DNA of 13,063 bases from Methanobacteriota archaeon (lineage in GTDB: Archaea > Thermoplasmatota > Poseidoniia > Poseidoniales > Poseidoniaceae), in the NCBI GenBank assembly GCA_002727515.1, contig PBXF01000002.1:1-13063 (forward strand), given 5' to 3'. Both the position numbers and the translations under genes were made by a program. The notes under the pieces are model-generated. The model saw only the letters and a list, made by a program, of their open reading frames with translations, searched no databases and had not been told where the DNA came from. The first letter of the stretch is position 1; the number at the start of each line of letters is the position of its first letter. Below are positions 145 through 13,063 of this stretch, piece by piece.

Positions 145-3096
145 TTACTCAAGAGAATATTCTCTTCTGACAAAAGCCGCAGCGGAGAGTATTCCGACCA
201 ACGTAAGTACAGCGCCTATACTTGGTATGGAATCTTCTTCCGCTTCATTATCATCAGATTCAGCTTCAGGGTTACCCTTACATGGAATCCAATGGGAATC
301 AACTCCAGGCTCTCCTGCACTAGTGATGCCACCTGCTTCAGAGATGTATAGCATTTGAGAGCCTGCTGGCCATTCTACAACATAATTTCCAGTATAGAAT
401 GAGATTGTATTATCCCAAACCGGTTGGCTATTAGCGGCCCATGTTTCTTTACATGGACATTTGTAGGGTTTCCAGAACTCATCGATTCCGCCGTCCACAA
501 TAGGGTCTGCAACATAATCAGGTCCGCCATTATTGCCGCTATGGATAAAGATAATTTCGTAATAATTTCCTGAATTTGCAGGGAACTGATAGATATCTCC
601 AATTTGAGGTGTAGTTGTATTGTCCCAGACTGCCACATCTAAGCCGTCACAAGGCCCAGGACTTGCTCCAGTTCCATCACAAAGAACCCAGTGGGTGTCA
701 ACGCCAGGTTCTCCGGCGCCAACGGTTACTCCGCCTGACTCAAGAGGGGTGTACAAATTACCCGATCCTGCTGGGTGTTCAACAACATAATTTCCGGGGT
801 AAGCAGTACCTGCTACCCAAACCGGTTGTCCATTAGCGACCCATGTTTCCTTACACGGGCAATCGATTGGTGACCAAACATCCATGTCCATATCTGGTGC
901 ATTGACATTCGTGAATGGGCTTCCAGGATTTACCTGATAGTACATTTCAGAACCAGCAGGATATTCATAAATTTCACCGGAGGTTACTACTGTGGAAGGA
1001 CTCCAAACTCCGATAACATCCAATCCAGCGCACTGATTGGAATAAGGCAAGTTTGTACCAGGACAGAGTTTCCAAGAATCGGAGTTAGGGTTTGGCTCAG
1101 CTCCAGAAGTACTGTCAATTGCGATCCATAGAGTGTCAGAACCTGCTGGCCACTCAACTACCTCATCTAACCAGTAAAATGTGGATATGTCCCAAACTGG
1201 TTCACCATTAGCAACCCATGTTTCCTTACATGGGCAATCGATTGGTGACCAAACATCCATGTCAATATCAGGGGCGCTTACGCTCCAGAATGGGCTTCCT
1301 GGATTCACTATGTAATAGTTGGAAGAACCAGCAGGATACTGATATACATCGCCGGACGTCACATTCGTTCCTGAAGTCCATACGCCGACCACATTAAGTC
1401 CAGCACATGGTTCACCAGAAGGCTCACCAGGTTCGCTGCAAAGTTCCCATTCAGGGTCAGTTCCCGGTTCGTCTCCAGGGCCTGGAGAAGGCGATGCGAC
1501 GTACAACATCATTGAACCTGCTGGCCATTCGACAACATCGTTTGGTGAGTATGCAACCGAAGCATCCCATACAGGTTGTCCATTAGTTTCCCATGTGTCC
1601 TCACATGGACAAACTACAGGCGCCCATACATCAAGATCTGTAGTTGGAGATAGAACCTCTTGGTCTACATATCCTTGAATTACAACCTGATAATATTCAT
1701 TTGAACCTGCTGGATATTCGTAAATTTCACCTGTTGACACTCTTGCCATGTCATACCAGGCACCAACATAGTCTAGACCACCACATGGTCCAGTTGAGTT
1801 GTTATTTTCAGGACCACACAGTTCCCATTCATTACCATCAGCCCAAGGCTCCCCTGGCTCAACACCAGCAGTGGTTGATGGCATTATGGCCATCCAGTAA
1901 TCACCTGTGTTTACTGGGTGCTCAACTATTACTCCTGAAGAGTATGTTGTAGATGCATCCCAAACTAGATTTCCGCCTGCTTCCCAAATCTCTTCACAGG
2001 TACAATGTTTTTCAGACCATGCATCCAAATCAACGCCTGGGGCTCCAACTAATTGAGCACTAAAGCCCGGTGAGACGATGTAGAACATTCCTGAATCGTC
2101 AGGGTATTGGAATATATCTCCGGACGTAACAGGGGTTGTGTCAGTCCAAGTCTTACCACCAGTTCCGTTGAAATCATCACAAAGGTTGCCGCTTGGCTGG
2201 TCTCCATTACAAGGAGTCCAAAGGTAGGAGCTGTTAGCACTTCCAGGCTCAACATTTCCATGGTCGAAGGAGATGTAAAGGGTATTTGATCCTGCAGGCC
2301 ACTCAACAACCGCGTTTTGCATGTAGTTAGCACTTGAATCCCAGACAGGCATCCCTGTATCATACCAAATATCCTTACAGTCACAATCCAGAGGTTCACC
2401 CCATGCATCGAGGTCTACTCCAGGCGCTCCAACTGTTTGGTTAACCATTCCCACTCCCACCACGGTGTAGAAATGGCCCGAATTCGCTGGATATTGGTAT
2501 ACTTCTCCTTCTGTTACAAGGGTTGAGTTTTCCCATACAGGGGTGGGTAAATTAGCTATTGATGCACATGATTCTGCACAAAGAATCCAAAGGTCATTGC
2601 CTTCTACTGGGACATCTCCAGCATTAGTTCCTGCATCTTGAACAAACCAAATTCCACCGTTATATTCTACAATTTGCCATGCATTATATGCCATTGTTGA
2701 ATTCCACATAATGCCGCTAGTTTCAGCGATGTCTTCACATGAACAGGGGCCTGTCCACTTACCTGTAGCATTTGGTTCACTTGTTGGCCCTGCAGTGGTG
2801 CTCTGCCAAAAATGGCCAGAATTAGCAGGCCATTCTACAATGTCATGCAAATTGTATGAAGCGCTACTATCCCAAACAGGGCCGCCCATTCCATCTGCAG
2901 CATTTGTGAAATTACATCCTGAATCGGTTCCGCTTACATTCCCCTGCATACCTGAAGATTGTCTACCAGATGTTTGAGAAACATCATCTGGTTCATCGGT
3001 ATCAAAATCAATTTTATCGTTTGTGTAGTCCATGCTGTAAATCGACATGTGTATGGTCAGAACAGCAATTATAGCCCAGCAACTTAGTTTGCGCAT
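145..3096 (-). CDS. Giant secreted repeat protein with tandem chitin-binding-type (CBM5/12-like) modules and C-terminal anchor
   Basis: A protein of about 983 residues. The N-terminus (MRKLSCWAIIAVLTIHMSIY) is a signal peptide, followed by a Ser/Gly/Asp-rich linker to about residue 70. Fourteen modules follow. Eight type-A modules (about 73-118, 129-173, 250-296, 377-427, 508-553, 633-678, 758-806, 892-939) read PVWD.S..Y....VVEWPAGS..LY......EPG...W.LC, the aromatic pattern of type 3 chitin-binding (CBM5/12) domains. Six type-B modules (177-240, 306-367, 438-498, 564-623, 689-748, 816-882) read C.GL..VGVW....VTSGEIYEYPAGS.YY.V...APD.D.DVW....CPC. Each A+B pair has about four cysteines, suggesting disulfides. 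An acidic linker (944-956) leads to a hydrophobic helix and Arg-Arg (957-978), the layout of archaeal C-terminal sorting/anchor signals. No catalytic domain is visible, so it is probably a surface adhesin or glycan-binding protein. I chose the ATG at 3096 because a TATA box lies 25 nt upstream; ATG 3102 and TTG 3111 are alternatives. Confidence 0.85.
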   Translation of the reverse strand: MRKLSCWAIIAVLTIHMSIYSMDYTNDKIDFDTDEPDDVSQTSGRQSSGMQGNVSGTDSGCNFTNAADGMGGPVWDSSASYNLHDIVEWPANSGHFWQSTTAGPTSEPNATGKWTGPCSCEDIAETSGIMWNSTMAYNAWQIVEYNGGIWFVQDAGTNAGDVPVEGNDLWILCAESCASIANLPTPVWENSTLVTEGEVYQYPANSGHFYTVVGVGMVNQTVGAPGVDLDAWGEPLDCDCKDIWYDTGMPVWDSSANYMQNAVVEWPAGSNTLYISFDHGNVEPGSANSSYLWTPCNGDQPSGNLCDDFNGTGGKTWTDTTPVTSGDIFQYPDDSGMFYIVSPGFSAQLVGAPGVDLDAWSEKHCTCEEIWEAGGNLVWDASTTYSSGVIVEHPVNTGDYWMAIMPSTTAGVEPGEPWADGNEWELCGPENNNSTGPCGGLDYVGAWYDMARVSTGEIYEYPAGSNEYYQVVIQGYVDQEVLSPTTDLDVWAPVVCPCEDTWETNGQPVWDASVAYSPNDVVEWPAGSMMLYVASPSPGPGDEPGTDPEWELCSEPGEPSGEPCAGLNVVGVWTSGTNVTSGDVYQYPAGSSNYYIVNPGSPFWSVSAPDIDMDVWSPIDCPCKETWVANGEPVWDISTFYWLDEVVEWPAGSDTLWIAIDSTSGAEPNPNSDSWKLCPGTNLPYSNQCAGLDVIGVWSPSTVVTSGEIYEYPAGSEMYYQVNPGSPFTNVNAPDMDMDVWSPIDCPCKETWVANGQPVWVAGTAYPGNYVVEHPAGSGNLYTPLESGGVTVGAGEPGVDTHWVLCDGTGASPGPCDGLDVAVWDNTTTPQIGDIYQFPANSGNYYEIIFIHSGNNGGPDYVADPIVDGGIDEFWKPYKCPCKETWAANSQPVWDNTISFYTGNYVVEWPAGSQMLYISEAGGITSAGEPGVDSHWIPCKGNPEAESDDNEAEEDSIPSIGAVLTLVGILSAAAFVRREYSLE
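831..900 (-). repeat. Near-identical direct repeat inside the giant gene (partner at 1206-1275)
   Basis: Positions 831-900 and 1206-1275 match at about 65 of 70 bases with an offset of exactly 375 nt (125 codons, one A+B module pair). The segment encodes the end of a type-B module and the start of the next type-A module (SPIDCPCKETWVANG). Other module copies are much more diverged at DNA level, so this pair reflects a recent duplication or gene conversion of one module pair. Confidence 0.8.
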
Positions 3097-3116
3097 GGAC
3101 ATTACCCACAATCAAA

Positions 3117-11407: not shown

Positions 11408-12430
11408 ATGGACTTGACCCAATCCACTTGGATGATTCGGGATTTGGGTCAGCCCGTTAGTGCCGTCCGAATATGCCCTGATAAATCCATAATTGCTGGT
11501 GGATGGGATGGCAAATTATCCCATTGGGATTCAGATGGTAAACTGCTTTGGTCTACAGATTGTATGGATAGAATAGAATCTATTTGCCAAATAGAATCTA
11601 AATTCATAGTTACTTCAGGATTACATGTTGTCTGTGTTGAAAATGGCGAGCAGCTTTGGGCGCACCCATTAGAAGGTTCTGCGGACCTACTTTCATACTT
11701 TGACGGAGAAGTAATCGCCACATCTAGCGTTTATGATATAGAACATGGAGACTTTATGGAAAGTGCAATATGGAAATTTTCTCTTGAGGGTGAATTAAAT
11801 TCTGTAGAAAAAATCGATGAAAGACCATGGTTCATGTCCGCAAAAGAAGATCTCGTCATTGGTCTAGGTCGACCTAAATGTGGTCTTTTGGTGAACGGTA
11901 ATCATGTCGACTTAGGTACCGATTCGCCAGTTATGTGTGGCATGGAAGGCAATGATGGAATATTGCTGGGTCATGCTGACGGTACAATATCGAAATCTAC
12001 AGGAGAAATAGTCAGTACAGAATCTTCTGGAATAGAATCAATTATTCCAACAGAAAATGGTTATACTACGGCTTTGGAAGACGGGACTATTTTGGCAAGG
12101 AACACTGATACTGAACTATTATGGAAGGTTAAGAAAAATCAAATCACAACTCAATCTACTGCATTTTCATACCATTGGTTAGGAAATTGGGATGGCTTGA
12201 GAGGTTCAGTAGAAGTTAGAGACAATTTGGGTAAACTTGTTACATCCCAAAATACGTCCAAACCGAGAGTATCTTCGGAAGCATCTGGTAGGATTTGTTT
12301 TGGTTTTGAAGATGGACAAATTTTGGTCTGGGAAAAGGAACTTTTTGAGAGAAGGAAAACCCAGGAAGTAGTTGTACAAGATGAGAAGAAATCTGCTCTC
12401 GCAGCCAAACTCAGATCACTACGTAAATAG
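11408..12430 (+). CDS. Cytoplasmic beta-propeller (WD40/PQQ-like) protein
   Basis: A 340-residue protein with no signal peptide, built of repeated beta-propeller blades. Clear blade signatures are VRICPDKSIIAGGWDGKLSHWDSDGKLLW (first blade, residues about 19-47), ICQIESKFIVTSG..VVCVENGEQLW, GLGRPKCGLLVNG, GMEGNDGILLGHADGTISK, TALEDGTILARNTDTELLW and RICFGFEDGQILVWEKE (the last blade). The DG.I/LW spacing suits a six- or seven-blade WD40 or PQQ-type propeller acting as a protein-docking platform. A basic C-terminal tail (KKSALAAKLRSLRK) extends beyond the propeller. The partner is unknown. A TATA-like stretch lies about 25 nt upstream of the ATG. The gene follows the membrane protein on the same strand after 39 nt and is followed by a T-rich terminator. 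Confidence 0.8.
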   Translation: MDLTQSTWMIRDLGQPVSAVRICPDKSIIAGGWDGKLSHWDSDGKLLWSTDCMDRIESICQIESKFIVTSGLHVVCVENGEQLWAHPLEGSADLLSYFDGEVIATSSVYDIEHGDFMESAIWKFSLEGELNSVEKIDERPWFMSAKEDLVIGLGRPKCGLLVNGNHVDLGTDSPVMCGMEGNDGILLGHADGTISKSTGEIVSTESSGIESIIPTENGYTTALEDGTILARNTDTELLWKVKKNQITTQSTAFSYHWLGNWDGLRGSVEVRDNLGKLVTSQNTSKPRVSSEASGRICFGFEDGQILVWEKELFERRKTQEVVVQDEKKSALAAKLRSLRK

Positions 12431-12442: not shown

Positions 12443-12517
12443 GCCGAATTCTCCACCGGACACAGTGGAAAATAACCCCGCAAACCCCCGTTTCTGATGG
12501 AAAATAGGGTGTTTTTT
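12443..12517. other. Short spacer between the beta-propeller gene and the putative RNA promoter
   Basis: About 75 nt without a gene. A small inverted repeat (TCCAC 12452-12456 with GTGGA 12465-12469) and a second T6 tract (12512-12517) are visible. The T tract could be a second terminator for the upstream operon. No conserved snoRNA C/D box pair or tRNA is seen. Confidence 0.3.
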
Positions 12518-12532
12518 CCGAAAGGTTTATTT
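12518..12532 (+). promoter_or_regulatory. BRE/TATA promoter of the putative structured RNA
   Basis: CCGAAAGG followed directly by TTTATTT fits an archaeal BRE (purine and A-rich) plus TATA box; strong stable-RNA promoters in archaea use this arrangement. Transcription would start about 25 nt downstream of the TATA centre, near 12554. No start codon and Shine-Dalgarno for a protein gene follow at the proper distance. Confidence 0.55.
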
Positions 12533-12551
12533 GCCTCCACCCCCCAAGGTG

Positions 12552-13063
12552 AGATTGCCGCTCCCATGGAGTGGTGGAGGAGGGCGTCAAAACCCGACTC
12601 TAGGACCCTGCCAACCGGTTGCTCAAACCGAGCAAAGTGTTGGTCACAAACCTTGGAGACAAGGCGAGTGAGGTGGGCAAGAAGATTTGGTCTTTCGGGA
12701 TCAAAAGTTCTCCCATCCATAGGAAGATTGGAAGCTTCGGCAGAAAATCACATGAAATCGAAAGAAATCATGACAGGGAGGGCACAACTTCGGTTGTGTA
12801 GTACCAATCCTATGCAACAGCCGGGAGGAGTAGCAGTAACAGTTCTTCGGGACAACCTCTGTTACAACAAACGGCAACCGACCAAGATACTTCGGTATCA
12901 TGGTCACGAGAAACCGAACCAAGGAGTAGCTTCGGCTGCAACCTAGTAACGGGCTCACCGGACGGAAACCGCGCCACTCCTTCTTCGGAAGGAAGTGGAA
13001 ACGGACCTCCAGGCCAAAGTGAAAAAGCACCTAGTGCTTTGAATCTGAAGCCACAGCGAACCC
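12552..13063 (+). ncRNA. Putative large structured non-coding RNA, running off the window end
   Basis: No convincing protein is encoded in over 500 nt. The plus strand folds into a dense run of local hairpins. Seven are capped by UUCG, with the loops at 12694, 12736, 12789, 12846, 12891, 12931 and 12984. The best are CACAAC/GTTGTG (12783-12798), GATAC/GTATC inside GACCA/TGGTC with an A/A mismatch (12880-12905), and CCACTCCTTC/GAAGG-A-AGTGG (12974-12998, one bulged A). GNRA loops cap CCTTG/CAAGG (12651-12664) and a hairpin at 12751-12772. A perfect 7-bp stem AAAGCAC/GTGCTTT closes near 13024-13040. Enclosing stems (CTCCC 12710-12714 with GGGAG 12776-12780; GCCG 12820-12823 with CGGC 12872-12875) create branched junctions. 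UUCG is a plus-strand RNA signature, so strand is clear. The 5' end is inferred from the promoter; the 3' end is beyond the window. I cannot assign a known RNA class. Confidence 0.75.

Follow-up and report, generated by a model that had tools for sequence, protein, structure and literature searches.

The Ornate Large Extremophilic (OLE) RNA is a bacterial RNA of ~600 nt whose biochemical role is described as not established. It has dedicated protein partners, OapA, OapB and OapC. The ROOL and GOLLD RNAs, which are found in bacteria and phages, have been reported to form RNA-only cages and are presented there as being of unknown function, ROOL being known from phages and prophages, where it often neighbours tRNA islands, and the same source treats OLE, ROOL and GOLLD as described from bacteria and their phages (PMC12286853). 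PMC2864571 bears on archaeal RNA candidates, and in the archaeal group to which the DNA studied here belongs Tan1 (Thalassoarchaea ncRNA 1) has been reported as an abundant, structured non-coding RNA of 229 nt with six homologues (PMC5069720).

Here we analyze a locus of the Poseidoniales that appears to encode a large RNA of a different kind, no description of which was found in the open-access PMC papers covered. Like OLE, this RNA combines a similar size with an elaborate and conserved secondary structure but, unlike OLE, it is archaeal and has no Rfam match at cut-off. It resembles ROOL and GOLLD in being large, ornate and rich in arms, and differs from them in lacking an Rfam match, in having no tRNA in the window (the whole stretch of 13,063 nt under analysis) and in occupying one syntenic place on the chromosome across many species. 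The negative Rfam result and, for ROOL and GOLLD, also the genomic context lend no support to membership in OLE, ROOL or GOLLD; by analogy, it is possible that the RNA works like one of them. With Tan1 it shares the condition of being a structured non-coding RNA from the same archaeal group, although Tan1 is reported as only 229 nt long and is set against the present RNA by description only. Archaeal RNase P RNA (RF00373) and SRP RNA (RF01857) are likewise large structured RNAs of the same genomes, but their ordinary copies lie at other places. The features of the window on which the analysis rests are as follows.

11408..12430, plus strand: gene for a 340-aa beta-propeller-like protein, directly upstream of the RNA and its usual neighbour (synteny)
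12451..12504, no strand assigned: upstream boxes CTCCACCGGACACAGTGGAAAA (12451-12472) and GTTTCTGATGGAAAA (12490-12504), in a block that is recognizable both in close loci and in the distant loci displayed
12518..12533, plus strand: BRE/TATA-like promoter element, CCGAAAGG plus TTTATTTG, with the TATA-like part at 12526-12533 (sequence, relatives)
12552..13063, plus strand: structured non-coding RNA, 5' part, continuing past the window end (folding and UUCG statistics; homologues in 19 related loci)
12547..12725, plus strand: 5' domain, as matched by model R2, with a hairpin GCCGCUCC-CAU-GGAGUGGU at 12557-12575 followed by a GCCAAC/GUUGGU stem and branched helices (covariation in alignment A1, held-out detection)
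12726..13063, plus strand: variable middle, made of consecutive UUCG-capped arms whose number and sequence depend on the species (fold, alignments)

Fold, extent and covariation of the RNA

The first-pass annotation had read the interval 12552-13063 as an RNA with at least ten stable hairpins, seven of them capped by UUCG and two by GNRA loops, at a density that chance would not produce. The computed fold of the plus strand bears this out with 13 hairpins and with both tetraloop counts exact, the UUCG loops having their first loop base at 12694, 12736, 12789, 12846, 12891, 12931 and 12984, and the GNRA loops corresponding to GAGA at 12656 and GAAA at 12760. At -187.9 kcal/mol, the minimum free energy of this interval has a z-score of -5.4 relative to 100 dinucleotide shuffles, and the seven UUCG-capped hairpins of the interval compare with none in all of 300 dinucleotide shuffles. 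The raw count of TTCG, also seven, has a mean of 1.5 and a maximum of 7 over 300 shuffles, meaning that at least one shuffle equals the window, and hence the exceptional feature is the placement of TTCG at hairpin tips. The reverse strand of the interval also folds well (z = -3.8 against 100 shuffles), which is to be anticipated where stems are complementary. The hexamer CTTCGG occurs six times on the plus strand of the window and, in 15 relatives, between two and nine times in sense and at most once in antisense.

As regards the extent of the RNA, the annotation was right about a structured RNA at 12552..13063, but what lies there is only its 5' part. With the HflX gene of the window as the query, 34 loci were recovered from the genome collection, and in 19 of them blastn detected the RNA with an aligned length of 612-886 nt. 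These relatives extend ~95-370 nt beyond the point at which the window stops and include a 3' domain that is the most conserved part of the molecule; the window therefore ends inside the RNA, with the 3' domain lying outside. In distant relatives the size of the RNA ranges from ~450 nt (L130, L139) to ~1250 nt, the upper value being the distance between the 5' match and the last terminal hairpin, and the middle of the RNA is too variable between species in the alignments for a single class-wide structure. The long form, seen in ten genomes (G274-G278, G282-G285 and G287; e.g. loci L079, L083 and L092), carries the 3' domain copied in tandem, with two matches to model R3 ~300-330 nt apart on one contig, and a single R3 match is present in G279 (L085) and G286 (L091). 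An apparent internal tandem duplication is also visible in the compact RNAs of L138 (G015), L143 (G014) and L144 (G212), where overlapping matches cover the same part of the query. In G052, two copies of the 3' domain lie on different contigs (C45 and C153), the only such case in the R1 and R3 searches, which may reflect a mixed bin or a second copy.

Homologues with covarying stems were found, in line with what a conserved RNA would be expected to show. Three alignments were used: A1 for the 5' domain (20 sequences, including the window), A2 for the 3' domain (19 sequences) and A3 for the terminal hairpin (32 distinct sequences from several clades, after leaving out sequences with N and exact duplicates). 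As controls, 500 shuffles were run and pairing partners were slid by 1-3 columns; none of the counts takes account of relatedness among the sequences. RNAalifold reports two-sided changes in 20 of 47 pairs in A1 and in 15 of 55 pairs in A2. Without correction for relatedness, double-change cells amount to 65 in A1 versus 17.6 in shuffles (slid controls at most 16), to 48 in A2 versus 14.6 (slid, at most 10) and to 52 in A3 versus 14.8 (slid, at most 4), each of the three values lying above all 500 shuffles. In A3, which comprises 16 pairs, 98.6% of the cells are paired, and the number of further pair types does not rise above shuffles (494 of 500 as high). The clearest covariation is that of the 3' terminal hairpin, which has a loop of the CCGGAUGAA type and a GGAG/CUCC base that stays constant in different loci under a 12-bp arm of changing sequence: CUGGCAGGGGGG/CCCCCCUGCCAG, CAGGUAGAGGGG/CCCCCCUACCUG (with one mismatch), CUGGUGAGUGGG/CCCACUCACCAG and CUGGCUGGCGGG/CCCGCCAGCCAG. 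The tail GCUUAUGACUGUU that follows this hairpin is conserved within the close group, and a pairing of the two ends of the RNA through UUGCC/GGUAA was considered as a possibility, by eye only.

Known families, coding potential and distribution

A search with all models of Rfam 15 (4227 families) returned no family at the gathering cut-off, either in the window itself or in the 21 related loci searched (nine close and twelve distant). The best match below cut-off was to Ysr283 (E 0.0066, 18.5 of 58 bits); this and the matches to SAM-IV, mir-1896, HOXB13-AS1_1, RAGATH-31, HIV-1_SL3 and whalefall-1 were weak and were taken as chance. ARAGORN found no tRNA in the window. Identity with RNase P or SRP RNA, which the annotation had been unable to recognize, was rejected, since ordinary copies sit elsewhere: RF00373 scores over its cut-off away from this locus in 15 of 16 genomes (G012 gave no match), and RF01857 in 7 of 11 draft genomes (no match in the other four).

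The earlier statement that the region encodes no believable protein likewise stood, no open reading frame being shared across loci and most indels having lengths that are not multiples of three. Among 19 sequences, the pairwise indel lengths leave remainders of 0, 1 and 2 on division by three in 454, 1379 and 873 cases, so that 454 of 2706 are multiples of three, counted over pairs that are not independent. For 38 loci, a set from which L007, L071, gaps shorter than 600 nt and gaps containing over 20 N were excluded, frames were compared with 100 random sequences per locus that matched it in dinucleotide composition; the longest frame surpasses that of 95% of the random sequences in sense in a single locus and in antisense in eight. 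The window contains a 149-aa sense ORF and some relatives have longer antisense frames, but a listing of ORFs across loci revealed none shared across clades. The 150-aa sense ORF of L079 has two database relatives, one of them nearly identical, and the 261-aa antisense ORF of L008 has 49, many on short contigs, the sole named one being a 'hypothetical protein'. We read these sense and antisense frames as gene-caller by-products over a conserved RNA. In this regard, it has been reported that 93% of RNA-Seq reads on euryarchaeal contigs stem from 13 mRNAs of 'intrinsically disordered' proteins, one such protein cluster being annotated as 'collagen-like cell surface protein' (PMC5069720). By analogy, spurious frames in an abundant structured RNA could resemble such mRNAs; nevertheless, stop-to-stop frames of at least 60 aa in the RNA contain no run of four or more collagen-like G-x-y units, so that a link to that protein cluster stays conjecture.

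The place of the RNA on the chromosome is markedly constant. In all 19 close loci it lies between a homologue of the beta-propeller-like gene and a convergent fumarase gene. Among 28 distant loci from 25 genomes (G191, G192 and G296 being each counted twice) the beta-propeller gene is found in 26 and the fumarase gene in 25, and among a further 20 loci in 19 and 16, respectively. Overall, 64 of 67 loci (19/19 close and 45/48 distant) thus have the beta-propeller gene ahead of the RNA. In L130, L157 and L161 there is no fumarase gene behind the RNA within the stretch fetched and the upstream gene is unchanged, which makes the upstream neighbour the more constant of the two. In L130 (3473-3955, minus strand; G213), a gene that by eye is ferritin-like replaces fumarase after the RNA, with the upstream beta-propeller gene kept. 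The 340-aa beta-propeller-like protein has a weak Pfam match to PQQ_2 (E 1.9e-4, below cut-off) and no NCBIfam match. Elsewhere in the window (145-3111, minus strand), a 988-aa repetitive protein with alternating W/Y-rich modules (VWDSS..Y..HDIVEWPANSG..W) and no Pfam match gives the impression of a cell-surface repeat protein.

Model R2, which represents the 5' end, was trained on the window and its 19 close relatives, without distant lineages, and was searched over 34 sources. It matches the window, a member of its training set, at 12547-12725. Among held-out loci, it detects every one of the 26 distant loci that carry the RNA (E between 7e-22 and 2e-3) and none of seven loci without the RNA; two of these seven, L026 and L029, are HflX loci, and in G014, the genome of L026, the RNA is present at another place. 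In a second set of 20 loci, R2 matched 19, the twentieth being L168 (G078), which consists of a 25-nt match without the neighbour gene.

At the level of genomes, models R1 and R3 find the RNA in 47 and 53, respectively, of 339 Poseidoniia genomes, the 47 being contained in the 53. DNA of the compact form (L139) matches 36 of the 339, three of which were already counted and 32 of which were added after G078 was dropped, and DNA of the L157 form matches 43 genomes in a 389-genome draw of the phylum, 33 of them new, with a 145-genome draw of the class giving the same 43. The union of R1, R3, L139 and L157, from which G078 is excluded, places the RNA by sequence match in at least 118 of 339 Poseidoniia genomes, a lower bound because L157 was run on part of the class and R3 missed genomes caught by the DNA search. 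Indeed, G208, G210, G014 and G015 are false negatives of R3, so that all model-based genome counts are to be read as lower bounds. The neighbourhood was examined in 18 of the 26 genomes that L139 matched weakly, and the beta-propeller gene is there in every one of them, whereas the 33 added by L157 rest on sequence match. All matches in the two phylum draws are to genomes already in the class search, and these two queries thus found the RNA nowhere outside the class. In 52 of the 53 genomes found by R3 there is one match, or a tandem on one contig.

In five loci, the match to the beta-propeller gene and that to the fumarase gene are only 22-23 nt apart. R3 with laxer filters found no match in these five genomes, which are also absent from the R1, R3 and L139 matches, bearing in mind that R3 misses diverged copies. 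In a tree of the beta-propeller protein (50 rows, leaving out proteins shorter than 200 aa or with 20 or more X), the five RNA-free loci fall together in a single clade with full support; its sister is the group that contains the closest relatives and, under a midpoint rooting used for drawing only, it is nested among RNA-bearing lineages. The simplest reading is a single loss of the RNA in one clade, where it is consequently dispensable. L012, whose contig ends before the RNA site, was counted among the RNA-bearing close loci for this tree; this contig (PAYR01000040.1) is titled 'Flavobacteriales bacterium', has the beta-propeller gene and an HflX 72% identical to that of the window, and is probably a mis-binned Poseidoniales contig.

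The promoter block and its resemblance to origin recognition boxes

A BRE/TATA promoter ahead of the RNA had also been proposed, and a TATA-like element after a BRE-like stretch is indeed present, with a similar one in relatives; its TTTAT is kept in close relatives and is variable in some distant ones. Transcription would start near 12553. The block between the beta-propeller gene and the TATA element contains inverted boxes of the TTCCAnTGGAAA type, and 12481-12500, read as its reverse complement CCATCAGAAACGGGGGTTTG, is similar to an archaeal origin recognition box (ORB). A wide regulon for the promoter motif was considered and rejected: the single palindrome TTTCCNNTGGAAA gives 1-4 matches per genome in six genomes versus 0-2 for the reversed control and, with counts so near the control, is not specific. 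The inverted box pair occurs only at the RNA in five of seven genomes, is absent from G208 and, in G275, is found at two other places and not at the RNA. A promoter shared with RNase P or SRP RNA was discarded as well, neither motif pattern appearing in those 12 loci.

PMC4010727 bears on archaeal origins, and a common ORB consensus has been given as TCCA[CG]T[TG]GAAA[TC][GA]AAGGGGT (PMC4164010, Table 1). With up to three mismatches, this consensus has four matches in 667,538 bases (18 sequences), all of them in the upstream block of the RNA (L008, L017, L018 and L025), as are all nine matches obtained with free spacing. There is no ORB match at the block in the window, whose copy fails the three-mismatch scan, in L014 or in the contigs of G297 and G303. 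The boxes of the block are about one base short in spacing relative to the published consensus and, with up to four mismatches, three of ten matches fall at unrelated places. On five contigs 114-192 kb long, the cumulative GC skew has no extreme at the position of the RNA, and for this reason an origin at the locus, in spite of its ORB-like boxes, is kept as a lead only. Better inverted ORB pairs exist in G003 and G013, 70-75 kb from the RNA and 12-16 kb from the skew maximum. These pairs, with 1-3 mismatches and 137-138 bp apart (G003:C18 130574-130711, equivalent to L206 10574-10711, and G013:C6 20962-21100), adjoin a GGGP synthase gene in both genomes and a beta-CASP nuclease gene in G003, and may be considered a candidate Poseidoniia replication origin. 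In G275, two diverged ORB-like inverted pairs were observed (L179 924-978 and L175 1501-1555), the former lying behind a PCC-domain gene and immediately upstream of one for an MCM helicase. That the promoter of the RNA is under initiator-box-like control, without being an origin, is a lead rather than a result, and it seems rather unlikely that Orc1/Cdc6 binds these putatively ORB-derived boxes and so ties a giant archaeal RNA to the cell cycle.

Interpretation, alternatives and significance

That the locus encodes a structured non-coding RNA is close to certain, and it is very likely that this RNA constitutes a new class. The suggestion of a possible new archaeal RNA class in the first-pass annotation is supported by the lack of an Rfam family, the covarying homologues and the lack of a conserved ORF; the RNA is categorically new in the sense that no family matched, 'large ornate RNA' being a description and not a mechanism. 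Taken as a whole, the locus is best explained as the gene of a large, trans-acting structured non-coding RNA that probably existed already at an early stage of Poseidoniia evolution, a reading to which we assign a probability of about 0.75. The RNA would be transcribed from its own TATA promoter and would act as RNA in trans. Its functional core may correspond to the most conserved ends, the 5' hairpin and the 3' terminal hairpin, the terminal hairpins being the most likely docking site for a protein or for a second copy of the RNA, and the UUCG- and GNRA-capped arms, variable in number, could serve as structural struts as in OLE, ROOL and GOLLD. A scaffold or RNA-RNA assembly mechanism of this sort, proposed by analogy, is tentative and falls somewhat short of an even chance.

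Among the alternatives, the locus might act primarily as DNA, in the form of a replication origin bound by Orc1/Cdc6 or of a site controlled by the initiator, and the RNA would then be a transcript linked to the origin that assists initiation or signals it. The confinement of the three-mismatch and free-spacing ORB matches to the upstream block speaks for it, as does the similar inverted pair upstream of the MCM helicase gene in G275, but the five long contigs show no GC-skew extreme at the RNA, better ORB pairs lie near the skew maximum in G003 and G013, the box spacing is short, the block lacks an ORB match in the window, L014, G297 and G303, and part of the four-mismatch matches map to unrelated places. 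Moreover, the 22-23-nt gap of the RNA-free clade lacks both boxes and RNA, and we regard this explanation as improbable. We give equally little credence to a precursor from which smaller regulatory RNAs, perhaps the 229-nt Tan1, would be cut out and base-pair with targets; the abundance and structure of Tan1 in the same archaeal group (PMC5069720) are congruent with it, yet it is the ends, and not single arms, that are most conserved, and the paired regions of those ends covary with no one sequence being kept.

A cis-acting role, in which the beta-propeller gene would end in a long 3' UTR or a terminator region, would fit an RNA that lies on the same strand directly downstream of that gene, its neighbour in nearly all loci, but is very unlikely in view of the conserved TATA and box block that separates them, of the persistence of the gene in the RNA-free clade and of an RNA size that varies from ~450 to ~1250 nt. 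The annotation had also noted a resemblance to the RNA of mobile elements, for which the evidence gives no support. A mobile or viral element with a HEARO-, GOLLD- or ROOL-like ornate RNA might be suspected because phages and prophages carry ROOL, in many cases close to tRNA islands (PMC12286853), but synteny over many species disfavours it, there is neither a tRNA in the window nor an Rfam match, and 52 of 53 genomes have one match or a tandem on one contig, all of which renders it highly improbable. Finally, the notion of a protein-coding region with coincidental hairpins, which could invoke the 149-aa ORF of the window and the longer antisense frames of some relatives, can practically be dismissed on account of the frame-breaking indels, the covariation and the failure to see a shared frame.

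Read as the gene of a trans-acting structured RNA, the locus offers archaeal RNA biology a concrete object, with a defined gene, a promoter and two conserved terminal domains. The compact form of ~450 nt suits structure work, and the RNA-free clade seems to be a natural knockout. Through the ORB-like boxes of the promoter, a connection of a non-coding RNA with replication initiation becomes testable. Should Tan1 be a fragment of this RNA, a piece of it would already be in print. The archaea that carry the RNA can form a major part of surface-ocean communities, archaea of this group having accounted for 24% of the 16S reads in a Red Sea sample (PMC5069720), and if the RNA were as abundant as ROOL reportedly is, some of the marine metatranscriptome counts now assigned to proteins would need to be read again.
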